A stretch of 24,508 nt of DNA from positions 1-24,508 of the IMG/VR virus record IMGVR_UViG_3300034272_000735. The stretch is one strand, 5' to 3'. The position numbers were made by a program, and so were the translations under genes. Below, piece after piece: positions 2,934 through 23,750 of this stretch. The notes below the pieces were generated by a model. It made no database searches. It was not told the DNA's origin and saw only the letters and a program-made list of their open reading frames with translations. The stretch comes from a virus. Numbering within the stretch: the stretch's first letter is position 1; each line of letters opens with the position of its first letter.

Positions 2934-4334
2934 ATGGCAGATACAAAGATCACAGCACTGACGGCGATCACGACCGTCGATCCCGCGGTGGATGTCCTTC
3001 CCATTGTCGATGTCAGTGACACGACGATGGCTGCATCGGGCACCACGAAGAAGATCACCAGCAACCAGATCCTGGGAGCCGGCGGCACCGCCACCCTCGC
3101 CTCCGCCACCATCACCGGCGATCTGACGGTGAACACAAACGTGTTGAAGGTTGATTCGACGAATGATCGGGTGGGTATTGTTAATGCGTCTCCGACATAT
3201 CCTTTGGATGTAGTTGGAACCGGTCGATTCGTTCAGACCAATTTTGCGGACAATATTTTTCGGCTTTCTACTGGAGGATCAACAACCGGCAATATCAATC
3301 AGATCCTGTTTGCCGATCAGGCCACAAGCGCAACTGCCGCAATCACGGCTTACAACTCCGCATTTGGTTCCGGTAAGAACTACGCACTTGGTTTTACGAC
3401 CAATGGATCTGAGCGTTACCTGATCGACAGCACCGGCATCTCCACTTGGTCCGTCGGCGGCTCCACCGCCATGACCCTGAACTCCACGGGGCTGGCCTTA
3501 GGAATGTCGATTTCTAGCCCTTGGGCAACAAACCGGCGCGTTCTACAAATCGGTGGCACTAACAGCGGTGCCATTGCGTTGACTGGCACCAGCGGATCTG
3601 GCGAGCTTTTCTTCAACTCGTTTTTCAATAGTAGCTCTCAAAACATCTGTGTTGTCACAGGTGGAACTGGAAAGTACGACTTTAACGTAAGCACTGTCGG
3701 ATGCCATACATGGAGCATTGGAACAGGAACGGCAGGCAACGCCTTCACCTTCACCCAAGCAATGACCCTCGATACGACTGGGAATTTGCACGTTGGTACG
3801 ACAGCATATGTCGGTGTTGGTTCTAATTTTGTTAACAGCTTAAACGGTTTTAACATTGTTCCTAATAACACCGGAAGTGCTTCAAATCGAAACTGGCAGC
3901 TTGCCGCAAATGGAAGTGCTGCTGGCAATCTTGATTTCACTGTAAGCTCAGCAAACAATACCTATCCGAATTCTGCGTATCGGATGCAGCTTACGTCCGC
4001 TGGTGCGCTCAACAATACCACTGGAACTTACGGCACCATCTCCGATCTGCGATTGAAGGAGAACATCTCCGATGCTCGCAACTATCTGGCCGACTTGCTC
4101 AAGTTGCGCGTGGTGAAGTATTCGCTCAAAGAAGAGTCTTCCGCTGTTGCAACCAAACTCGGTTTTATCGCTCAGGAAGTCGAACTGGTGTTCCCGAATC
4201 TAGTCGATCAATCTGATAAGGAATACGACGGAGCCGAAGGTATTCGTAGCGTGAAGACTAGCATCCTGATTCCGATGCTCTTGAAAGCCATACAAGAACT
4301 CACCGCCCGCGTCCAAACCCTCGAAGCCCGCTAA
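2934..4334 (+). CDS. Tail fibre with C-terminal S74 intramolecular chaperone
   Basis: This 466-residue protein has an N-terminus (KITALTAITTVDPAVDVLPI) of a type common at the front of phage fibre proteins. The body is a long Gly/Ser/Thr/Asn-rich beta region with repeated TMTLNSTG-like and GNLHVG-like strands. The C-terminus is a Peptidase_S74 intramolecular chaperone. It starts at the SDLRLKENI motif (Ser370, Asp371, Lys375) and continues through KLGFIAQEVE to an end coiled coil (LLKAIQELTARVQTLEAR). In this family the trimeric chaperone folds the fibre and then cuts itself off just before the conserved Ser using a Ser/Lys dyad; both residues are present here, so an active domain of about 97 residues is predicted. 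The mature protein would bind the host surface. The start at 2934 has no Shine-Dalgarno site. Confidence 0.85.
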   Translation: MADTKITALTAITTVDPAVDVLPIVDVSDTTMAASGTTKKITSNQILGAGGTATLASATITGDLTVNTNVLKVDSTNDRVGIVNASPTYPLDVVGTGRFVQTNFADNIFRLSTGGSTTGNINQILFADQATSATAAITAYNSAFGSGKNYALGFTTNGSERYLIDSTGISTWSVGGSTAMTLNSTGLALGMSISSPWATNRRVLQIGGTNSGAIALTGTSGSGELFFNSFFNSSSQNICVVTGGTGKYDFNVSTVGCHTWSIGTGTAGNAFTFTQAMTLDTTGNLHVGTTAYVGVGSNFVNSLNGFNIVPNNTGSASNRNWQLAANGSAAGNLDFTVSSANNTYPNSAYRMQLTSAGALNNTTGTYGTISDLRLKENISDARNYLADLLKLRVVKYSLKEESSAVATKLGFIAQEVELVFPNLVDQSDKEYDGAEGIRSVKTSILIPMLLKAIQELTARVQTLEAR

Positions 4335-10053: not shown

Positions 10054-11410
10054 AGCACCAGATATGGCAGCGGCCAACCGGGAAGCGGTTATGGCCGGAA
10101 TTGAAACTTTTCCGCTCCAGCGCGAGATTGAGGCAGCATCCCGGATTGGAGAGACAGTCCAAGTTCCAATCTACAAGGATGGAAAGGAAACCGGTCAGTT
10201 CCGAACGGTTGATTTTAGCAAGACATCAGATATCGCGCTGACCAAAGCTATCGGCCAAGCGCTTGCTGATCTTGCTCCGGTTCAAGCCCAACGCCAGCTT
10301 GAGGCGTCTCAACTGTACGGCACCAAGTTCGCCGAACAACGGCTTAAAGAGCTTCAGGCTCTTGATCCCGAGCGGTATGGCACTGCTGCTGCCGATGGAA
10401 GACCCGGAACTCCCGGTCTCTATTCCCAGTTCCTAAGCGATATCAGCAAAGCTCCCATCTCTGAGACTTCTCCTGCCGCTCCTTCCTACGAGCGCGTGGG
10501 CATGCCTACTGGCCCGCAGGATACCGGCTACGCACAGTCCATCCGCAGCGATCTCGAGCGCCAGATCGGAGCCGGTCTTGCTCAGGCTGGCACTCTCGAT
10601 CCCACGATGATCCGTGCTGCCGAGCAAGCCGCTCGCGCCCGCGGAACCGCTACCGGCAACATCCTCGGCAACCTGTCCGCTTTCCGTGAGGCTCGCGCCG
10701 TCAACGAGGCGATCGCCAACGCGGATGTGCAGCGCCGGCAGCAAGCCATTGGTCTGCTCCAGAGCGGCCAGACTACGAGCGATGTCGCCAATCGTCAGGC
10801 GCAGGAGGCGTTCAACAACATCCTCGCGGCCACCGGTCAGCGGAATACTGCGATGCAGCAGAGCTTCGCCGGTCAGATGGCCGCGCAGCAGCAGCAGCAG
10901 GCCAGTCGCCAGCAGAACATTGCCAACATCCAGTCTGCCCTGGGACTCCAGCCGATCGTTTCGCAGGCTTCTCAACTTGGAGGTCTTCAACAGGGCGCTT
11001 CGCCATTTGCTGTTCCTCAGCTCATGCAGGGAATGCAAATGGCAAGTCCAGCTCAGTCGATGCAGATGGGTTCGAGCTTCGCACTACAGAACGCTCAGAA
11101 CGCGTTTGAAGCCTCGAAGGCCAATTCTCCTCTTGCCATTGCTCAGGGCGTCACAAGCAGCATCGGAAACCTCGGTCAGGCATTCAGCGGATTCGGCCTT
11201 GCCGGCTGCTACGTGGCCCGCGAGTGCATCCCAGATCAGTGGGAGGCGTTCTACTTCTGGAAGGAACTTGTTGGTCCCAAGTGGTTCAAGAGCTTCTACG
11301 ACAGCAATGCCGAGAAGTTCGCCAAGTGGATCAAGGACAAGCCGAAGACCAAGAAGCTCGTGGCCAACTGGATGCTCGGTCGAATCAAGAGCCTCATCCC
11401 GAAAGCCTGA
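10037..11410 (+). CDS. Internal virion / DNA-ejection protein, T7 gp14-like position
   Basis: The 457-residue protein is largely helical, Ala/Gln-rich and without cysteine until its end. It includes a five-Gln tract at about residues 284-288 encoded by five CAG codons (10886-10900). The start at 10037 has a fair AAGGA site six bases upstream, inside the end of the previous gene. The last 68 residues are a distinct domain opening GCYVARECIPDQWEAFYFWK and containing basic, Trp-rich helices (KWFKSFYDSNAEKFAKWI). I recall this CxVAREV-type module at the ends of various phage virion proteins, with no known role. T7 gp14 is 196 residues, so this protein is much longer. An ejection role is inferred from order and composition. 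Confidence 0.55.
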   Translation: MGGSYKAPDMAAANREAVMAGIETFPLQREIEAASRIGETVQVPIYKDGKETGQFRTVDFSKTSDIALTKAIGQALADLAPVQAQRQLEASQLYGTKFAEQRLKELQALDPERYGTAAADGRPGTPGLYSQFLSDISKAPISETSPAAPSYERVGMPTGPQDTGYAQSIRSDLERQIGAGLAQAGTLDPTMIRAAEQAARARGTATGNILGNLSAFREARAVNEAIANADVQRRQQAIGLLQSGQTTSDVANRQAQEAFNNILAATGQRNTAMQQSFAGQMAAQQQQQASRQQNIANIQSALGLQPIVSQASQLGGLQQGASPFAVPQLMQGMQMASPAQSMQMGSSFALQNAQNAFEASKANSPLAIAQGVTSSIGNLGQAFSGFGLAGCYVARECIPDQWEAFYFWKELVGPKWFKSFYDSNAEKFAKWIKDKPKTKKLVANWMLGRIKSLIPKA

Positions 11411-11413
11411 TCA

Positions 11414-12454
11414 ATGGCAAACGATACCAGCACAGATACGTCAGGATCTGGAACGGATTCATCAAGTCCGAATCAGGCGTCTGAGAGGCTATATCTTGCC
11501 GGCGACCAGTATCTGCCATGGGGAGCAATCATTCCTGGCACGGGTGGACTTCGAGTTGGAGATGAATATGTCGATAACGCTGGGAATCGCTGGGACTGGC
11601 AGATCGATGACTGGGAATACAATAGGCCAGCAGTCGATCTATCGACCCCTCCAACCCCTAAGTTCGGACCAGTAACTCGATCCGGATACGCTCAGCCTCC
11701 CGTAGATCCGCTGAGCTACTACTCGACTCCTGAACCGACTCCTGAACCGACTCCGTACACTGGTGGGCCAACAAGGTGGTGGGAAATCAATCGTCCCGCT
11801 TTGGATCTGAGCAATATCCAGACGTTTACTCCGGTTTCATCGCCTGCTCCTGAGCCAACCTCGCCTCCTGTATCTCAACAACCGACATACAGCAGCGAGG
11901 GAGAAGACTCTGGAACCAGCCTGATAACCGATGAAAACAGGGAAAGGTACATCAGGGAAGGCGGGATGAATCTTCAGGGACCATCGGAACCCACTCCGGT
12001 GAATCCTCTTCCTGAGACACCTCTCCCAAAGGTGGAAGATGTTAATACCAACATTTTCTCAGGCGTTGTCACAAACCCAGTACAAGGAGGCGAGAAGCCT
12101 TACTACATAGAGGACACTGGTGTTGCCGGCCCCGCTATAGAGAGCAAGCCTATCACTCCAGGGTTGATCCCGTTGGATAAACCTCAATTCACCTTACAGC
12201 CCACAACCAGTTTTCCGTCAACGACCACTCGCAACCCCATCGTACTCCCCGGTGCCTCGGTGCTGAGCAGGCCAGTCATCACGACCCCGTTGCCCGAGCT
12301 TCCGGTCAACCCCGTGCTGACTCGCAATCGGGACATGGCTTCGAGCCGGTACTTCCGCGACATCAACTACGATCCCGAGGAGATCCTCGCCGCGGCGATG
12401 CGGAGCATGGGCGGTCGCATGGCCCGTCGGTCAATCCTCAACGAACTGAGCTAA
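11414..12454 (+). CDS. Pro/Thr-rich, mainly disordered virion-module protein
   Basis: The 346-residue protein is rich in Pro, Thr and Ser. Its N-terminus is low complexity (TSTDTSGSGTDSSSPNQ). A short folded-looking segment follows (residues about 27-70, with GDQYLPWGAIIPGTGGLRV). Two copies of a W-E-[YI]-N-R-P-A-[VL]-D-L-S motif sit at residues 67-77 and 123-133, separated by a PEPTPEPTP spacer. The rest is mostly disordered until a helical, basic end (EEILAAAMRSMGGRMARRSI). No family is recognised. It lies between the two other internal-protein genes, so it is probably carried in the virion or needed to assemble the ejection proteins. Neighbouring gaps are 3 and 6 bases. Confidence 0.6.
   Translation: MANDTSTDTSGSGTDSSSPNQASERLYLAGDQYLPWGAIIPGTGGLRVGDEYVDNAGNRWDWQIDDWEYNRPAVDLSTPPTPKFGPVTRSGYAQPPVDPLSYYSTPEPTPEPTPYTGGPTRWWEINRPALDLSNIQTFTPVSSPAPEPTSPPVSQQPTYSSEGEDSGTSLITDENRERYIREGGMNLQGPSEPTPVNPLPETPLPKVEDVNTNIFSGVVTNPVQGGEKPYYIEDTGVAGPAIESKPITPGLIPLDKPQFTLQPTTSFPSTTTRNPIVLPGASVLSRPVITTPLPELPVNPVLTRNRDMASSRYFRDINYDPEEILAAAMRSMGGRMARRSILNELS
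11725..11754 (+). repeat. 12-base tandem repeat, 2.5 copies, encoding PEPT units
   Basis: The unit GACTCCTGAACC occurs at 11725-11736 and 11737-11748 with a further half copy to 11754. It encodes TPEPTPEPTP, a stiff Pro/Glu spacer between the two NRPA[VL]DLS motifs. The perfect identity of the copies suggests recent slippage. Confidence 0.8.
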
Positions 12455-13810: not shown

Positions 13811-16800
13811 ATGACTCAAGAACAGCGCGACTGGCTGGAGAAAAACGGCCTTGATCCTACGGTCTACGACATCGACGCCGAAGGCAATGTCTTCGAAAAC
13901 CCCGTCGAGCGGATGTCCAAGACGCGAGCTGCGCTGACATCAGCCGCTGCAAGCACCCTTCCAAGTCTCGGTGGCTTGGCTGCTGCTGTTCCTGGCATGA
14001 AGGTTGGCGCTATTGCAGGTGCGCCTTTTGGTGGCCCTGTCGGATCTACAATCGGATCTGTCATCGGCGGCATGGTTACCGGATTCGGTGGATCATACCT
14101 CACCGGAAAAGCTCAGGAGGCTGCACTTGAAAGGTACGCTCCCGAAGCGATTGAGCAGATTGCCAGAGCGCAAGAAGAGCAGCCTGTTGCTTCGTTCGTT
14201 GGTGGAGTTGCACCTACTGCGCTCACCATGCGTCCAACCACTCAGGGATTGAGTGGCCTGCTTCGTCCTACAGTTCGTGGAACAACTCTACGAGAGGCTG
14301 TCACGAGACCTGAGTTCGTTGCTCCTGCGTCTAACGTCGCAGCCAACATTGCTCAGTCAGCCGCTGGCCAAGCTCTCAAGGTTGCTCAAGGTGGAGAGTT
14401 CTCGCCCACTGAGTTTGCTGCGGAAACTGCTATCGGAACCCTGTTCAATCGACCGACTCGACTTGGGCGTAAGCTGGGATTGCCCGATCTTCCGGAAGTT
14501 CCCGAAGCACAGAAGACCGATTTGGAACGCGCTCGGCTGATGGCTGAAAGGCCAGAAGAGTTTGTTACACCGCGTGAAGAACGGCTTGGTATCGGGCGCG
14601 AAAAAGTTGCTCCAGAGCAGTTCTTTGGAACTGAGATGGATCAGCGCAATCGACCTGTCAGTGAAGAACGCGCTGCAAAGGAATACGCCAACTGGTGGAA
14701 GTCTGAGACCGAACCGACTGCTGATCTCATCAAGCAAGCGGCTGAAAGTGTTAAGATCAAGATCCCTCGTGAACGCATCAATGAGTTGGCCAACGATCCT
14801 GATGTCGCTCGCGTCATCAACGATCCGACAACTCTGCCTGAGTTCGTAGCCAAGCAGAGCCAAGACGCGCTTCAGGACGCTTACGAGAACGCTGCAAAAC
14901 AAAATCAGGCTGTTAAGACTGAGGAGATGCCTGATTGGATGCGTCCCGCTTTAGAGGACGTTGCTAAGGCTGAGACGATCCAGAAACAGAACGAAGAAGC
15001 CGGACTCATGGAAGAGGGCATGGCTGCTCAGGAGCTTCTCAACGAGCAAAAGAAGAGACGCAACAAGCAGGGTATTGCTGCCGCCCGCGAGATCTACAAC
15101 GACATCTACAGCCGTTTCCAACGCGGTGAAGGTGAACCTCGAATCAGCCAAGCGGATATCGATGCCGCTGCACAGATCGCTGCTCGCCGAGGTTTGAAGA
15201 TCGAACTTGATCGAGCCTACTCCGGTTCGAGAGAGGTTCGCGGTGTGTACATGGTCAATCCGGACACTGGAGACCGTATTGTTCGCGTCAACCCGTTGAT
15301 GGCCACACCGGATACCGCTATTCACGAGATTGGCCACGATGTGTTTCGTGGAGTCACGAACCCTTCGATGCGGAAGTCCTTGCTGGAAACGGCGATCGAC
15401 ACGCCCGCGTTCAAGTCTGAGATGGCCGCAAGACAGGCCGAGGTCGATCAGGGTCTTATGAGCCCGCAGAGGGCCAGAGAGATCGCTCTCGAAGAAGGTG
15501 TCATCCAAGCGTTCGGTGAACAGATACCGAACATCAACCGCAGCGAACTCCGCTCGTGGTTCCAAGCGTTTAAGGCGTCCACCAAGCAACTCGTCACTGG
15601 CCGACTCTCACCGGATGACGCTATCGCTTGGCTTCACTACGCCAGCACGGAAGCGGTGCCATGGAAGGGTGTTGCTGCTCCGAAGGCTACTGAGCAGCGA
15701 ATGCAGAGGGATGAGCAACCTCAAACCATTTCAGAGCGTAGAGCTGCTGCATTTGAAAGATTCAAGCAATCTACTCCTGGCTCACAAGCCGAAATGATGG
15801 AAAGTGGCAGAATCTTTTCTCCAGATGTCAGAGCTAAACTTGAGGCTCTTCAAGCTGGAGGAACACTGGACAGAGAGGCGTTGCAGGCTGCAATAAACCG
15901 AGATATTCCGGTTAGAAAAGTTGCTGAGTTTTCAACGAAATCACTTCCAGATTTTAAAACAATTCGAGACTCGCTTAGTGATCCGAGGAAAAAAGCTAAT
16001 GTTGGTAAGTTAAACGAAATACCTGCTGGATCTGAAATGACGCTTAGACAGGACGTTCCTGCGATGACTGATTTTGGTGTTGGCGTAGTAACAGGAACAA
16101 GTGGAGATATAACTACATACGAGCCGTTTATTCGTGTCAGGAACATCAAAATGGTTCCCACGAAAGGAATGGAAACACAGTCACTTAAGATAGGTGCTGG
16201 TGCTGCAAAGAACCCTGCTATCGTCGCAAAAGGGATAAAGCATGAATTGCAAACAATTCCAAGCGACATAAACACTTGGACTCAAGTTGGATTCAATCCT
16301 GATAGGCATTCATACTTTTACGACAGAGCTGACGGTGTGACCCCAATTTTAGGAGGGGATGAGGCTGTTCAGATAGGGAATACGGTTTTTGTTAAAAATC
16401 CACAAACCGGAGATTCGGGTAGTTTCCGTTTTCAACGCGGAGAAGAGAAGACACGCAAGTTCGCGGAGCGTGTTGCTGCTTCAGAGCAGGTTCCTTCCGA
16501 GGTAAGGCGTGTGGTTGCTGGTTCTCCAGAAGCACAGTACATCGAGCAATCCGTTCGTGATGAAGCCAGCCGAGCCTCCATCAAGAGCGACCGTGAACTG
16601 GCCGCAGACATCATCGATCCGGAATCCAACACTCGGGTTATCTCGGGGATGGAGCAGTTCAATCGCCAGATCGCCAGTGGAGACATGGATGGTGCGAGTA
16701 AAACTGCGCTGTCGCTTTCAAAGAGCGGTACCACTTGGGGTCAGCTCATCAACCAGTTCAAGCTCCTCAAGTCGGCCAGTCGTGAGGGCGTAATTCAACT

Positions 16801-18991
16801 CGTCACCAAGTCGCTTGAACAGAACAAGCGCAAGCCGATGACTCCGAAGCAGGCCGATCAGCTCGGCACTGCGATGGATCAGTACAAGATCGCTCAGGAC
16901 GCTGCGACCGCCGCCCGTGTTGAAGGGCGCACCGCTTTTGGAAGCAACAAACCATCCGATATCCAGAGCGCACTGGACCGCATCAACGTGGCCGACACGC
17001 TTCGCATGGAAGCGGATGTCGTTCTCAACGAGACGATCGCCAGGATCAATCCTTCGTCCGCTGCTGATCTCTTCGTGTCGCTTGTGCAGGGATCGGTCAT
17101 GGCCCCGATCTCCATCGTTCGCAACGTGGTCGGCAACGCCATCAACCTGCCACTCCGTGAGACCGCCGATCTTACCTCGTCGCTCATCGACATGGCGCTG
17201 TTTGGTAGCAAGAACAACGCTTACAACTACAGGTCTCGGTTGCTCGATCGTATCAAGGCGTTTGGACAATCTTTGCCCGCTGCACAGAAAGCGATTCTCA
17301 GGGGTTCCAACGCCAACCCATACGAACTGGGAACAAGCATCGGAAACCCGCTCAACTTCCAGCGGGCGTGGAAGAATCTGTACGAGGCCATGTCCGGTGA
17401 GTACCGAGGCAACGTGGTCCGCAATATTGTTGAGGCTACCGTTGGCGTGATGCCTGACATCATGCTGAGACTGACTCAGGCGACCGACATCCCGTTCAAG
17501 CAGGCCAACCGTGCGGCGATCGTCTCTGAGTTGGGACGCATGCGCGGTCTCACCGAAAGTCAAATCAAGCTGGCACTCAAGGATCCTGAGCTTGCGCTGA
17601 TCTCTGATCAGGCTCGTGCCAATGGGCGCAAAGGATTCACCGCGGATGACATCAACACGATCGAAACCGAGGCCGCTCGGTCGGTGTTCCAGCAGGACAA
17701 TTCCGCTACCCGCATGGTGGCCGGTATCAACCGGTTCATCAAACAGGAGACTGGTTCTCTTGGATACGTCCCGTACCGCCTGATCTCGCTCTTCCAGAAG
17801 ACGCCCATCAACGTCGCCGCTGAGGCATTGCAGTTTACTCCTGCTGGCGTTCTTAGAGACTGGGGCAACATGAGTGTGCGCGACCGTGAGCAGGCTGTTG
17901 GCCGGCTCATCGTTGGAAGCATGGTGATGGGGGCGTTCTCCTACCTGTACGACAAGGGGATCATCACCCCTAACCTCGACACTCCTGGTGAGACCAACAA
18001 GGCTCGTGAGTTGGCCAAATCTGGTGGCGTCATGCCTCCCGGAACTCTCAACGTGTCGGCCCTGCGCCGCCTGACTTCGGGTCAGGATCCTAGCTTCCAG
18101 CCGGGGGACACCGTCAAAGACTTGTCAGCCCTCGGAACCATGGGCGCTCTTGGCATCATTGTCGGATCCTCGAAGCGTATCGCCGAGCGTTCACGCACCG
18201 ATGAACCTGACTTCTTCGCCCTCGGAAAGGGGTCTGCTCTGTCTGGCATCAACTTCGTGATGGAGCAGCAGTTCCTCAAGGGAACGAGCGATCTGATCAA
18301 GCTCATGTCCGAGGAATCGGGCGCTTCGCTTGAGCGGTTTGTGAAGAATCTGGCGGTTACCGCTGCATCCCCAGTCGCCCCATCTACTCTCGGTTCCATT
18401 CGCCGCGCTGAACGCGAGTACCTGCCCGTCACGGGCGGAGAAGGCATTATCAAAGACACCGTGAACGAGCTGAACCAGCGGTTCGCAGCCCTTGGATTGG
18501 CCATCCCTGGCACGAAGGATCCGAATGCGATGCCGGTGCGCCGTGATCTGTGGGGAGAAGCGGTTGAGCAGACACCAAAGGGCAACAATCCGTGGGTGTA
18601 CCAGTTCCTTTCGTTCGCCAAGAACCGCGAGATCGATGCCGACCCGCTGAACGCCTCGATTTACCGCGTGTGGCGCAGGACTGCGGACAACAAGGCGCTC
18701 CCGTCAGTGCCGAATCCGCAGCTCACCTACAAGAACCAGACGTTCGAGCGGATGACTCCTGAGCAGTACGACCGATACGCTCAACTCGTCGGGTTTTACC
18801 GCAGAAAGTTCTCCGAAAGAGCGTTCATGAGCGGTGCCTACCAGCAGCGCGGTGATGAGGCTCGCATCAAGCTGCTGTCCGAGGCTTACGACAACGGACT
18901 CAAGCTCGGAAAGCTCAGATTCCTCAAGGAATTGCGAGAATCCGGCCAGACTTTGACGCCCGTCGCTCCCCGTCGAGGCTTCGAGGAATAA
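13811..18991 (+). CDS. Giant multidomain internal/ejection protein with HExxH metallopeptidase-like motif
   Basis: The 1726-residue protein occupies the T7 gp16 position. Visible parts: residues about 63-100, a glycine-zipper hydrophobic stretch (VGAIAGAPFGGPVGSTIG...); about 200-430, charged helices; RFQRGE at 435-440; about 441-600, a probable zincin-like domain with H505-E506-I-G-H509 and possible third ligand Glu561/562 or Glu570; about 636-872, an AT-rich-coded segment with the signature GFNPDRHSYFYDR (827-839) and GGDEAVQIGNTVFVKNP, a pattern I recall from polyvalent phage and plasmid proteins; a second RFQRGE at 873-878. The last 800 residues are helical with GTLNVSALRRL and a conserved-looking C-terminus, possibly an LPD38-like domain. 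It is probably ejected with the DNA, where the metallopeptidase could act on host envelope or proteins. Exact domain edges are uncertain. Confidence 0.65.
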   Translation: MTQEQRDWLEKNGLDPTVYDIDAEGNVFENPVERMSKTRAALTSAAASTLPSLGGLAAAVPGMKVGAIAGAPFGGPVGSTIGSVIGGMVTGFGGSYLTGKAQEAALERYAPEAIEQIARAQEEQPVASFVGGVAPTALTMRPTTQGLSGLLRPTVRGTTLREAVTRPEFVAPASNVAANIAQSAAGQALKVAQGGEFSPTEFAAETAIGTLFNRPTRLGRKLGLPDLPEVPEAQKTDLERARLMAERPEEFVTPREERLGIGREKVAPEQFFGTEMDQRNRPVSEERAAKEYANWWKSETEPTADLIKQAAESVKIKIPRERINELANDPDVARVINDPTTLPEFVAKQSQDALQDAYENAAKQNQAVKTEEMPDWMRPALEDVAKAETIQKQNEEAGLMEEGMAAQELLNEQKKRRNKQGIAAAREIYNDIYSRFQRGEGEPRISQADIDAAAQIAARRGLKIELDRAYSGSREVRGVYMVNPDTGDRIVRVNPLMATPDTAIHEIGHDVFRGVTNPSMRKSLLETAIDTPAFKSEMAARQAEVDQGLMSPQRAREIALEEGVIQAFGEQIPNINRSELRSWFQAFKASTKQLVTGRLSPDDAIAWLHYASTEAVPWKGVAAPKATEQRMQRDEQPQTISERRAAAFERFKQSTPGSQAEMMESGRIFSPDVRAKLEALQAGGTLDREALQAAINRDIPVRKVAEFSTKSLPDFKTIRDSLSDPRKKANVGKLNEIPAGSEMTLRQDVPAMTDFGVGVVTGTSGDITTYEPFIRVRNIKMVPTKGMETQSLKIGAGAAKNPAIVAKGIKHELQTIPSDINTWTQVGFNPDRHSYFYDRADGVTPILGGDEAVQIGNTVFVKNPQTGDSGSFRFQRGEEKTRKFAERVAASEQVPSEVRRVVAGSPEAQYIEQSVRDEASRASIKSDRELAADIIDPESNTRVISGMEQFNRQIASGDMDGASKTALSLSKSGTTWGQLINQFKLLKSASREGVIQLVTKSLEQNKRKPMTPKQADQLGTAMDQYKIAQDAATAARVEGRTAFGSNKPSDIQSALDRINVADTLRMEADVVLNETIARINPSSAADLFVSLVQGSVMAPISIVRNVVGNAINLPLRETADLTSSLIDMALFGSKNNAYNYRSRLLDRIKAFGQSLPAAQKAILRGSNANPYELGTSIGNPLNFQRAWKNLYEAMSGEYRGNVVRNIVEATVGVMPDIMLRLTQATDIPFKQANRAAIVSELGRMRGLTESQIKLALKDPELALISDQARANGRKGFTADDINTIETEAARSVFQQDNSATRMVAGINRFIKQETGSLGYVPYRLISLFQKTPINVAAEALQFTPAGVLRDWGNMSVRDREQAVGRLIVGSMVMGAFSYLYDKGIITPNLDTPGETNKARELAKSGGVMPPGTLNVSALRRLTSGQDPSFQPGDTVKDLSALGTMGALGIIVGSSKRIAERSRTDEPDFFALGKGSALSGINFVMEQQFLKGTSDLIKLMSEESGASLERFVKNLAVTAASPVAPSTLGSIRRAEREYLPVTGGEGIIKDTVNELNQRFAALGLAIPGTKDPNAMPVRRDLWGEAVEQTPKGNNPWVYQFLSFAKNREIDADPLNASIYRVWRRTADNKALPSVPNPQLTYKNQTFERMTPEQYDRYAQLVGFYRRKFSERAFMSGAYQQRGDEARIKLLSEAYDNGLKLGKLRFLKELRESGQTLTPVAPRRGFEE

Positions 18992-19047: not shown

Positions 19048-19218
19048 AGCGTAAAACTACTCTCGATCAAAGAGATCGCACAGACCCTCGGGACTCATCC
19101 CGAGACGGTGCGTCGATGGATCAGGGATGGTCGGCTTCCAGCCATGAAGGCAACGAAGCGCACGATCCGTGTTCGCTCCGACGTCATCGAGCAACTACTC
19201 CGAAACAACAGCAAATGA
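19045..19218 (+). CDS. Excisionase/MerR-type helix-turn-helix DNA-binding protein
   Basis: The protein has 57 residues from GTG at 19045; a TTG at 19009 would add 12 residues that do not fit the family. The sequence LLSIKEIAQTLGTHPETVRR followed by WIRDGRLPAMKATKRTIRVR is the standard HTH_17/excisionase layout: a helix-turn-helix, a wing with GRLPA, then basic strands and a last helix (DVIEQLL). Such proteins act as small DNA-binding regulators or as recombination directionality factors. No integrase is in the window, so a regulator is favoured here. It sits at the head of the recombination genes, directly after a tandem repeat it might bind. It overlaps the RecT-like gene by ATGA (19215-19218). 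Confidence 0.8.
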   Translation: MSVKLLSIKEIAQTLGTHPETVRRWIRDGRLPAMKATKRTIRVRSDVIEQLLRNNSK

Positions 19219-19997
19219 ACGCAATCGCAACGACAACCGCTGATGCATCCTCCGAGATGTACAGCAAGATCGCAGACCCCATCACCGCCATCGAGAAGAT
19301 GGGCGAGTGGATCGCAGCCAGCGGAATGCTGGGATGCACCAAGGTCGAACAGGGAAAGCTCATCGCGTGGCAATGCGCCGCCGAGAAGAAGACCCCGTTC
19401 GATTTCCGCCGGGAATACCACATCATCAACGGCTCCCTCAGTATGCGCTCCGATGCCATGCTGGCCGGCTACCGCGCTCGCGGCGGTAAGGTGCTGTGGA
19501 AGCAGTTCGATACCAAGGCAGCCATCGCTGTCTGGTCCTATGATGGTAACCAGTGCGAGATCGGGTTCTCTACTGAGGACGCCAAGCTCGCCGGTCTCCT
19601 CCCCGCCAAGCCGGGTTCCGGGTGGGCCAAGGATCCTGGTGCCATGCTCCGCGCTCGCTGCATCAGCAAAGCGATCCGCATGCTCGCTCCTGAAGTGGTG
19701 GCCGGCATCTACACCCCTGAGGAGACCGAGGACTTCCAGCCAGCCATTGCTGAGACGCCTGTCGCTCCCACCAAGAGCTTCGACCTCTTGGCCAAGCTGG
19801 AGGAACTCTTCGAGTCACGCGAGTCCGATGTGAACGCGCTGCTGCTCAAGGCCGGTCGAATTAAGGAAGGCCAGACCTTCCGCGATCTGGATGACACCTT
19901 CGCCAGCAAGTACATCAGCAAGCCTGACCTCATCCTCGGCAAGCTGCCGCTGATCGTGACGCCTGAGACCGTCGTGACCCCGGAGGTGACCCCGTGA
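19215..19997 (+). CDS. RecT-like single-strand DNA annealing protein
   Basis: The 260-residue protein pairs complementary single strands during phage recombination and repair. The core features of RecT-type annealing proteins are present: an N-terminal region with GKLIAWQCAAEKKTPFDFRR at about residues 48-67, a central LSMRSDAMLAGYRARGG segment (75-91), and the diagnostic stretch GWAKDPGAMLRARCISKAIR (136-155) leading into MLAPEVVAGIYTPEE (156-170). The C-terminal 90 residues are variable and charged, as usual. The start is set by the ATGA overlap with the HTH gene. It overlaps the nuclease gene by GTGA at 19994-19997, the familiar exonuclease-plus-annealase pairing. I did not assign a gene symbol because subfamily cannot be resolved by eye. 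Confidence 0.85.
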   Translation: MNAIATTTADASSEMYSKIADPITAIEKMGEWIAASGMLGCTKVEQGKLIAWQCAAEKKTPFDFRREYHIINGSLSMRSDAMLAGYRARGGKVLWKQFDTKAAIAVWSYDGNQCEIGFSTEDAKLAGLLPAKPGSGWAKDPGAMLRARCISKAIRMLAPEVVAGIYTPEETEDFQPAIAETPVAPTKSFDLLAKLEELFESRESDVNALLLKAGRIKEGQTFRDLDDTFASKYISKPDLILGKLPLIVTPETVVTPEVTP

Positions 19998-20773
19998 GCA
20001 CCGAGGTAATCCACAACATGCCGTCGGCCATCTACCACGGCACCAAGGCCCTCTCCAAGTCCGGCCTCGATCAGTTCAGGCGGTCCCCCGCCCACTTCCG
20101 CGCTTGGCAGGATGGCACGACCAAGAACGAGTCGTCCCCCGCTCTGGAGTTCGGGACCGCCGTTCACATGGCGATCCTTGAGCCTGAGCTGTTCGCCAAG
20201 TCCTACGCGGTATTCACCGGAGATCGCCGCACCAAGGACGGCAAAGCAGCCTACGAGGCCATCATCGCCGCTGGACTGACACCGCTCAATCAAGAGCAGT
20301 GGGACAACATCACCGGAGCCGCAGCCGCGGTTCACGCTCACCCTGCCGCAGCGCCGCTACTCAACGGAATCCAGACCGAGGTCTCGTGCTTCGACTCGTG
20401 GAATGGCGTGAAGGTCAAGGCTCGCATCGATGGCCTCGCCAAGGACTACATCATCGATGTCAAAACCACTCAGGATGCGTCGCTAAGCGCGTTCGCTAAG
20501 TCCTGCGCTCAGTTCCGCTACCACGTCCAAGCCGCTTGGTACCAACGCATCACCGGCATCAATCGATTCGTGTTCATCGCCGTTGAGAAGGAAGCTCCCT
20601 ACGGTGTCGCCTGCTACGAGCTTGATCAGTTGGCCATCGATGTCGGACATTCAATCATCGATGAACAACTCAAGACATTCATCGAGTGCCAGGAACTGAA
20701 CTCTTGGCCCTGCTACCCATCCACAACTCAAACCCTTTCGTTGCCCACATGGGCGATGCGTCAGTCCGAATAA
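19994..20773 (+). CDS. RecE/PDDEXK-like exonuclease
   Basis: The 259-residue protein probably resects double-stranded DNA ends to feed the RecT-like partner. Motifs in order: SKSGLDQFRRSPAHFRAW (21-38) and LEFGTAVHMAILEP (51-64), both typical of the exonuclease VIII / DUF3799 type; then ARIDG with Asp146, IIDVKTT with Asp155 and Lys157 (the D-x-K of the PDDEXK core), and the YHVQAAWYQ motif with Gln179. Glu129 could be the first acidic residue. All expected catalytic residues are therefore present. It is about a third of the length of E. coli RecE, matching its C-terminal nuclease domain. The GTG start has a good GGAGGTGA site four bases upstream. Confidence 0.85.
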   Translation: MSTEVIHNMPSAIYHGTKALSKSGLDQFRRSPAHFRAWQDGTTKNESSPALEFGTAVHMAILEPELFAKSYAVFTGDRRTKDGKAAYEAIIAAGLTPLNQEQWDNITGAAAAVHAHPAAAPLLNGIQTEVSCFDSWNGVKVKARIDGLAKDYIIDVKTTQDASLSAFAKSCAQFRYHVQAAWYQRITGINRFVFIAVEKEAPYGVACYELDQLAIDVGHSIIDEQLKTFIECQELNSWPCYPSTTQTLSLPTWAMRQSE

Positions 20774-22981: not shown

Positions 22982-23142
22982 GCGAGCAGGTCAAACGAAT
23001 GATCAACGATGGTACCGGGGTGTACCAGATGAGCAGGAGCCAAGCCGGTGAAACCTATCGTGCAGCGAAGAAACTTAAAAGATATGAAGTCAGCTACTGG
23101 AACAGGAACAAAAAGAACAAACAAACCCAAACGAAACCGTGA
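22978..23142 (+). CDS. 54-residue basic protein, possible DNA-binding peptide
   Basis: The product reads MSEQVKRMINDGTGVYQMSR, then SQAGETYRAAKKLKRYEVSY and an Asn/Lys-rich basic tail. The start is supported by an ATGA overlap with the resolvase stop and a strong GGAGGTG site (22967-22973) four bases before it. The middle part (YQMSRSQAGETYRAAKKLKR) looks like a short helix-turn-helix. The last 59 bases overlap, in another frame, the following gene if that starts at 23084. No family is recognised. A small nucleic-acid-binding accessory protein is possible. Confidence 0.5.
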   Translation: MSEQVKRMINDGTGVYQMSRSQAGETYRAAKKLKRYEVSYWNRNKKNKQTQTKP

Positions 23143-23278
23143 GCTTGTTAAACACGTTTTGGTGTCACCAGATGTGCATGCTGAGTTAAAGGCATACGCA
23201 ATCAAAAATGGATATAGAACTCAGGGACTAGCAGATGAAGCAATTGTAGAATATCTAAAGAGACAGGAGGCGAAATGA
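23084..23278 (+). CDS. Ribbon-helix-helix-like small DNA-binding protein
   Basis: The protein has 64 residues from ATG at 23084; a GTG at 23048 would add 12 residues and lies deeper inside the upstream gene. After a basic, disordered start (TGTGTKRTNKPKRNRELVKH) comes VLVSPDVHAELKAYAIKNGY, then a second helix LADEAIVEYLKRQ. A short strand followed by two helices is the Arc/CopG/MetJ ribbon-helix-helix arrangement, found in small phage repressors and antitoxins. The second half is noticeably richer in A and T than nearby genes, a possible sign of a different origin. It overlaps the next gene by ATGA with a strong AGGAGG site. Confidence 0.6.
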   Translation: MKSATGTGTKRTNKPKRNRELVKHVLVSPDVHAELKAYAIKNGYRTQGLADEAIVEYLKRQEAK

Positions 23279-23472
23279 GCGAACAAAACAAATCAGAGAC
23301 GGTACGACTAACATTCAAAGGACTGCTGTCCATTTACCTGCCGGACGAGAAGGTGGCGGAAGTTTACAACGCCACCGAACTGTCCTGCCGCAGGAACAAT
23401 TGGGGAATCGCAATCGACGAGAGCAACCGATTGGACTTTGTTCCGATGGTGAAGGTGGAGGAATCGAAATGA
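23275..23472 (+). CDS. 65-residue protein of unknown function
   Basis: Starts at an ATGA overlap, with AGGAGG at 23265-23270, four bases upstream, so initiation is well supported. The product (MSEQNKSETVRLTFKGLLSI, then YLPDEKVAEVYNATELSCRR) has one cysteine and a beta-prone start. It ends LDFVPMVKVEESK. No motif or family is recognised and there is no membrane helix. It belongs to a run of small genes joined by 4-base overlaps and is most likely an accessory early protein. Confidence 0.6.
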   Translation: MSEQNKSETVRLTFKGLLSIYLPDEKVAEVYNATELSCRRNNWGIAIDESNRLDFVPMVKVEESK

Positions 23473-23750
23473 GCAACCAACCAATCAACGCCGGAGGACC
23501 GGCGTTTCCACATACAACGCAATGGGACGGAATTACTCCAGCAATCAATTACCATGGTATTTCAATGCGCGACTACTTCGCAGCGGCGGCGCTAAACGGT
23601 TCGCTGGCAAGCCAATGTAAAGACAGTCATTGGGTTTTCTCGAACATTCCAGATGATTTTGAAAATGACACCGGAGCGTTATCTGGAATTGCTAAGTTAT
23701 CATACGATCTAGCCGACGCAATGCTCAAAGCGAGGGCGGAGGCAAAATGA
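23469..23750 (+). CDS. Small phage protein of the GGPAFP / SMRDYFAA type
   Basis: The protein has 93 residues starting MSNQPINAGGPAFPHTTQWD. Its features are the AFP motif near the N-terminus, a GISMRDYFAAAALNGSLAS segment in the middle and a final helix LSYDLADAMLKARAEAK. This combination (GGxAFP...G[MI]SxRDYFA...YxxADAMLxAR) is one I recall from many phage genomes, always annotated as hypothetical. The function is unknown. The start is set by the ATGA overlap with the previous stop and a GGAG site eight bases upstream; an upstream ATG at 23400 adds unrelated residues and is rejected. Confidence 0.7.
   Translation: MSNQPINAGGPAFPHTTQWDGITPAINYHGISMRDYFAAAALNGSLASQCKDSHWVFSNIPDDFENDTGALSGIAKLSYDLADAMLKARAEAK

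Follow-up and report, generated by a model that had tools for sequence, protein, structure and literature searches.

The window considered here, a stretch of 24,508 nucleotides (positions 1 to 24,508 of the IMG/VR virus record IMGVR_UViG_3300034272_000735), contains a gene for a giant protein in which a zincin-like domain is followed by an AT-rich segment and by a C-terminal half that is shared with its relatives (Table 1). Each border of the AT-rich segment, called module C1 in the following, carries a short peptide tag of the form RxQRxE. In all likelihood, C1 is one occupant of an exchangeable, tag-bordered slot between the zincin-like domain and the conserved C-terminal half, with the cargo of this slot being swapped by recombination in the general sense of the term.

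Composition and borders of the AT-rich segment

The GC content at third codon positions (GC3) of the giant gene drops from 0.6-0.7 to 0.28-0.36 across residues ~641-880 and then recovers. When a single segment is fitted, the best solution covers residues 636-908, with a GC3 of ~0.64 outside and 0.33 inside and a log-likelihood gain of 44.8; across 40 shuffles of the codons the gain never exceeded 10.6. The left edge of this fit matches a tag, while the right edge is blurred by ~35 codons. A first-pass annotation made from the sequence alone had described an AT-rich segment in an uninterrupted open reading frame (ORF) and had proposed a window plot in which a composition step should appear; the frame is indeed open, and the step is present and survives the shuffle test. 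The annotation had also placed RFQRGE at residues 435-440 and 873-878, with an agreement of 16/18 bases between the two coding stretches, all of which is correct. It was right that RFQRGE forms the downstream edge of the insert, but it overlooked the tag at the left edge, RMQRDE. The pair of tags that flanks the insert (630/873) agrees at only 9/18 bases. Recombination between the RFQRGE copies at 435 and 873 was considered and rejected, as this pair does not border the insert.

Contents of the slot among relatives

A scan with the zincin-like domain gathered 52 loci, and slot contents were counted in the 33 loci with both flanks, two duplicates being excluded. C1 occupies the slot in 18 of these (3/18 are identical to the window), ten have no cargo and just one tag, three contain an ADP-ribosyltransferase (ART), one contains C2, which is a divergent member of the C1 module family, and one contains an unassigned module. 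In filled slots the cargo has a tag on each side. In the slots of more distant relatives further domains are found, most of which begin directly after an R[MLTY]QR-like tag. The cargo of L023/L113 matches ART-PolyVal (Pfam PF18760) above the cut-off (E=3.3e-13), whereas the match in the slot of L140 and L141 lies below it. The cargo of L033 appears methyltransferase-like by eye only; it has no match in Pfam and hits only a family of unknown function in PHROGs, and was left unassigned. The GC3 of cargoes is mostly 0.32-0.44, that of the flanks mostly 0.56-0.76. In the slot region of L138 (6565-7824), an ART-PolyVal domain occurs together with a second HExxH motif that has a weak Peptidase_M48 match.

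Breakpoints against relatives with an ART, C2 or empty slot are sharp and lie at the tags; in the case of L113, with its ART cargo, the DNA homology to the window ends at 15718 and restarts at 16425. Pairs with 94-98% identical DNA in the C-terminal half, which serves as the backbone for comparison, carry different slot contents. On a tree of this half, the slot states require at least 11 changes, and for C1 alone at least 6 changes are forced by strongly supported branches; the state labels are no more scattered on the tree than in shuffles. Slot contents turn over far more quickly than the backbone does, and their changes keep the reading frame. The comparison of residues 636-872 among relatives, which the first-pass annotation had named as a check, shows that not all of them carry the segment with a flank-like composition.

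Table 1. Features of the giant gene and its downstream neighbours (positions in the window)
Feature	Position	Strand	Basis or remark
Giant protein, 1726 amino acids	13811..18991	+	ORF and translation; frame open throughout
N-terminal region A	13811..15112	+	Translation; length varies among relatives
Tag copy 1, RFQRGE, residues 435-440	15113..15130	+	Precedes zincin-like domain
Zincin-like metallopeptidase candidate	15131..15697	+	HEIGHD and downstream Glu conserved
Tag copy 2, RMQRDE, residues 630-635	15698..15715	+	Left boundary of slot
AT-rich cargo module C1, residues 636-872	15716..16426	+	Relatives, breakpoints, structure model
Tag copy 3, RFQRGE, residues 873-878	16427..16444	+	Right boundary of slot
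Conserved C-terminal half, regions D and E	16445..18991	+	Common to relatives regardless of slot content
RecT-family match and DUF3799 PD-(D/E)XK gene	19116..20773	+	Pfam PF03837 E=2.7e-5; PF12684 E=2.5e-38

Movement and identity of module C1

In 16 other contigs (L004-L019) the C1 segment is 88-92% identical to that of the window, with flanks that are mostly 50-75% identical. At four-fold degenerate sites, the identity between the window and its C1 relatives reaches 0.56-0.71 within the module, compared with 0.26-0.44 in the flanks (for L004, module versus region E, Fisher p = 3e-7). The module itself therefore has moved, as these sites are far less diverged than in the flanks, a difference which protein-level selection would not easily explain. 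The trees of module and backbone agree in their deepest split, while the partners of L126 differ between them with strong support in both. The nearest module outside the giant-protein family is 48% identical and is found in phage contigs that are AT-rich and 88 and 174 kb long. A match in a Niveispirillum plasmid (E=0.02) was discarded as noise, there being no module-like ORF at that place.

The fold of C1 is predicted with confidence by AlphaFold2, with a predicted local distance difference test score (pLDDT) of 90.4 and a predicted template modelling score (pTM) of 0.86, and neither sequence nor fold searches of the PDB returned a relative. Viral models that match the fold are, on the one hand, domains within giant proteins that bear the annotation ART-PolyVal-like, PcfJ-like, lysozyme or zeta toxin and, on the other, small stand-alone proteins from phages of Bacillus, Streptomyces and Mycobacterium. 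The link to phage polyvalent proteins drawn in the first-pass annotation is supported, both by the relatives of the module and by these fold matches inside giant phage proteins. The Pfam family PF25735 (Phage_L5_gp82) matches 24/41 members of the module alignment with a best E=8e-10, the relative L083 scores 33.8 at a cut-off of 27, and phrog_586 is matched by two module relatives. The window copy itself does not reach the gathering score of PF25735 and has no direct Pfam match to it. C1 is classed as a distant relative of PF25735/phrog_586 and not a member. From the company it keeps, C1 may be an early effector.

Members of the C1 module family are also present in a protein encoded between the portal and capsid genes (L042 4668-7652, L043 3282-7469, L044 4215-7052); two of these three phages are Roseobacter phages.

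The zincin-like domain and the recurrent tag

In an alignment of 22 relatives, HEIGHD and the Glu of the downstream ALEEG are invariant in the zincin-like domain. A zincin has three core strands with one helix on their N-terminal and two on their C-terminal side; the predicted order of one helix, three strands and further helices fits this, at a pLDDT of 53, and the domain has no significant Pfam match and no PDB match.

Within the family of the giant protein, the tag precedes each of three parts, namely the zincin-like domain, the cargo and region D, and at the slot borders it takes the form R[FMTY]QR[GDP]E or similar. As its codons vary while R.QR persists, the tag seems to be conserved as a peptide rather than as DNA, which implies that crossovers probably used the flanking homologous DNA more than the tag. 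The earlier proposal that the segment was acquired from a lower-GC source, perhaps by recombination at a linker motif, has to be amended in this respect, and the boundary pair is 630/873 rather than 435/873; the acquisition as such is supported by relatives that are empty or carry other domains at the exact site, by the AT-rich composition of most cargoes and by the low four-fold divergence.

Recurrent tags are also found in other giant phage proteins. Among 25 that carry a C1-type domain, 13 repeat one [FY]xx triplet on both sides of it, compared with 8.5% of mismatched pairs and 0/10,000 permutations. The effective n is slightly lower than 25, as L063 is a near-copy of L065 and as L090 and L024, the latter from the family of the giant protein itself, are one gene. 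Examples of recurrent triplets are YMP, FMP, FLP, YSI and FQP. The homogeneity of [FY]xP sites is 0.279 versus at most 0.211 in a between-protein permutation, which leaves composition uncontrolled and to which the test of matched against mismatched pairs was added afterwards; under within-protein residue shuffling the value is at the edge of the distribution (0.260 observed, maximum 0.262 in 500). The number of [FY]xP sites, 161, exceeds the maximum of 114 in within-protein shuffles. A blind search for over-represented 4-mers recovered the tag in some proteins only. In L046 (4096-12669), a giant ORF on a large phage contig rich in AT, PNFA occurs seven times at wide spacing, with 0.02 expected.

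Genomic neighbourhood

The giant gene is the last large gene following those for virion proteins, with the major capsid and tail fibre genes upstream. This position suggests that the giant protein enters the host cell along with the DNA, and the protein is probably of the polyvalent or ejected type. As a whole, the window protein has no specific match in Pfam, PHROGs or PADLOC. Region A has Gly/Ala-rich hydrophobic stretches at residues ~40-100, and a second length difference is located in the N-terminal region, where L113 and L114 have ~180 extra bases (window 14903-14930; L113 5590-5800). Thirteen relatives (L025-L029, L031, L032, L034-L036, L038-L040) have another N-terminal half altogether, with neither zincin nor tags, joined to a homologous C-terminal half; in L032 there is a sub-threshold match to ParB_N.

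Downstream, the RecT and DUF3799 genes are candidates, by their Pfam matches, for a recombination machinery beside the giant gene, with the start of the RecT-matching ORF being provisional. Homology to L113 also breaks at window 11217-11662, in genes upstream of the giant gene, and the GC content falls below 0.48 in two further stretches of the window (3501-4250 and 23001-23500), one of which lies within the tail fibre gene.

A possible mechanism of cargo exchange

Exchange of the cargo probably proceeds by recombination within the homologous stretches that flank the slot, possibly aided by the RecT-type recombinase of the phage. Such a route is suggested by the flanking homology, by the downstream RecT and exonuclease-like genes and by the relaxed activity known for RecT-type recombinases (PMC3945230). 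The giant protein would enter the host early in infection, with each cargo acting as an early effector selected by the defences or targets of the local hosts. The tag would be kept at each border as it is read as a peptide, perhaps as a site at which the embedded zincin-like protease would separate the domains, or else as a docking or linker motif. Cleavage of the tag by the embedded zincin-like domain, which follows a processing proposal for polyvalent proteins (PMC5512222), is a putative and tentative reason for the presence of the tag. More doubtful is a general form of this idea, in which a short tag, uniform within a protein and different between proteins, would serve as punctuation in the giant proteins that phages inject. 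Domains traded into tag-bounded slots would come under the resident tag, which the protein's own protease would read to free each effector after injection.

Weighing of alternative explanations

Could the AT-rich segment simply be an old native domain, with composition and conservation due to selection on its own residues and with the relatives that lack it being losses? The high identity of the module among phages and the deepest split common to the module and backbone trees would agree with this, yet the lower divergence relative to the flanks extends to four-fold sites, GC3, which is mostly blind to the choice of amino acids, is halved, other domains occupy the same place in almost identical backbones, and the placement of L126 differs between the trees; a native origin is thus very improbable. 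A misjoining of metagenomic contigs inside the giant gene is more improbable still: the close relatives are all metagenomic contigs, but the C1, empty and ART states each occur in several contigs from different samples, with junctions in frame and at the tag. It is also unlikely that the tag is a recombination hot spot in the DNA and nothing else, kept by crossovers occurring there and devoid of function as a peptide. Breakpoints do lie at tags, and at the left border of most filled slots the DNA is close to AYGCARAGGGG whatever the cargo; against this stand the poor agreement between left and right copies within one gene, the persistence of R.QR in spite of varying codons, and the different tags that other giant proteins repeat on both sides of the same domain.

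A serious contender for the role of the tag is that of a docking or flexible-linker motif, for example in capsid packaging or in threading through the tail, instead of a cleavage site. Recurrent tags are also present in giant proteins that show no HExxH, and the N4 virion RNA polymerase, in which there are long flexible linkers, has been modelled as unfolding during ejection (PMC12633501), whereas the tag is absent from the thirteen relatives with a zincin-free N-terminal half despite their homologous C-terminal half. An exchangeable slot whose tags are cut by the zincin-like domain also has to contend with several points that weigh against it. The absence of tag and zincin in those thirteen relatives may be one evolutionary event counted repeatedly. 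Since some giant proteins with recurrent tags show no HExxH in the ORF read, cis cleavage by a zincin cannot be universal. The model of the zincin-like domain is poor (pLDDT 53), too poor for a fold search, and the tag statistics were designed post hoc, with several versions tried. According to the account of polyvalent proteins, the N4 virion RNA polymerase, which likewise has a zincin domain, is packaged unprocessed (PMC5512222). Lastly, the ART cargo of L140 is not AT-rich, with a GC3 of 0.66.

Comparison with known systems

The closest known counterparts are the polyvalent proteins of phages and conjugative elements (Iyer et al. 2017, PMC5512222). Like them, the giant protein is a phage protein of very large size that combines several domains: a zincin-like one, modules of ART type and ParB type in relatives, and small domains specific to phages. 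In the sections read, no mention was found of a slot at a constant place that is empty in some near-identical phages and occupied in others, or of a recurrent border tag, and the word "linker" is absent from the main text. With regard to the multi-domain character of polyvalent proteins, ART-PolyVal and a sub-threshold ParB_N are present in relatives, while the window copy shows only the zincin motif and C1. ART-PolyVal (PF18760) occupies the same slot in relatives and is not the cargo of the window. Compared with PF25735 (Phage_L5_gp82) and phrog_586, the window copy has ~100 extra N-terminal residues and is located inside a giant protein. The N4 virion RNA polymerase, likened here from its description (PMC12633501), is also a giant ejected protein with an HExxH domain.

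No earlier description of the slot and tag pattern was found in the literature searched, a search in which most subscription journals lay outside the scope. The recent shuffling of protein fragments between phages is known as domain mosaicism (Smug et al. 2023, PMC10684548; the text does not contain the word "polyvalent"), and the mark of its contemporary form, in which, at high identity, a fragment recurs in several contexts or a context is shared by several fragments, is found at this locus. The finding, which goes further than the first-pass annotation had described, is a well-delimited variant of this known phage protein mosaicism, to which the tag pattern is added. It gives a clear example from nature of how individual domains enter, leave and substitute for one another within a single phage gene, near-identical phages having the site either empty or occupied, and the slot offers a means of collecting phage effector domains of undescribed kinds. 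The recurrent tag points to specific places at which polyvalent proteins might undergo the processing proposed for them in 2017, a proposal for which no sites were found in that account (PMC5512222). Together, slot and tag show how phages may trade single effector domains and suggest where giant proteins might be cut apart.
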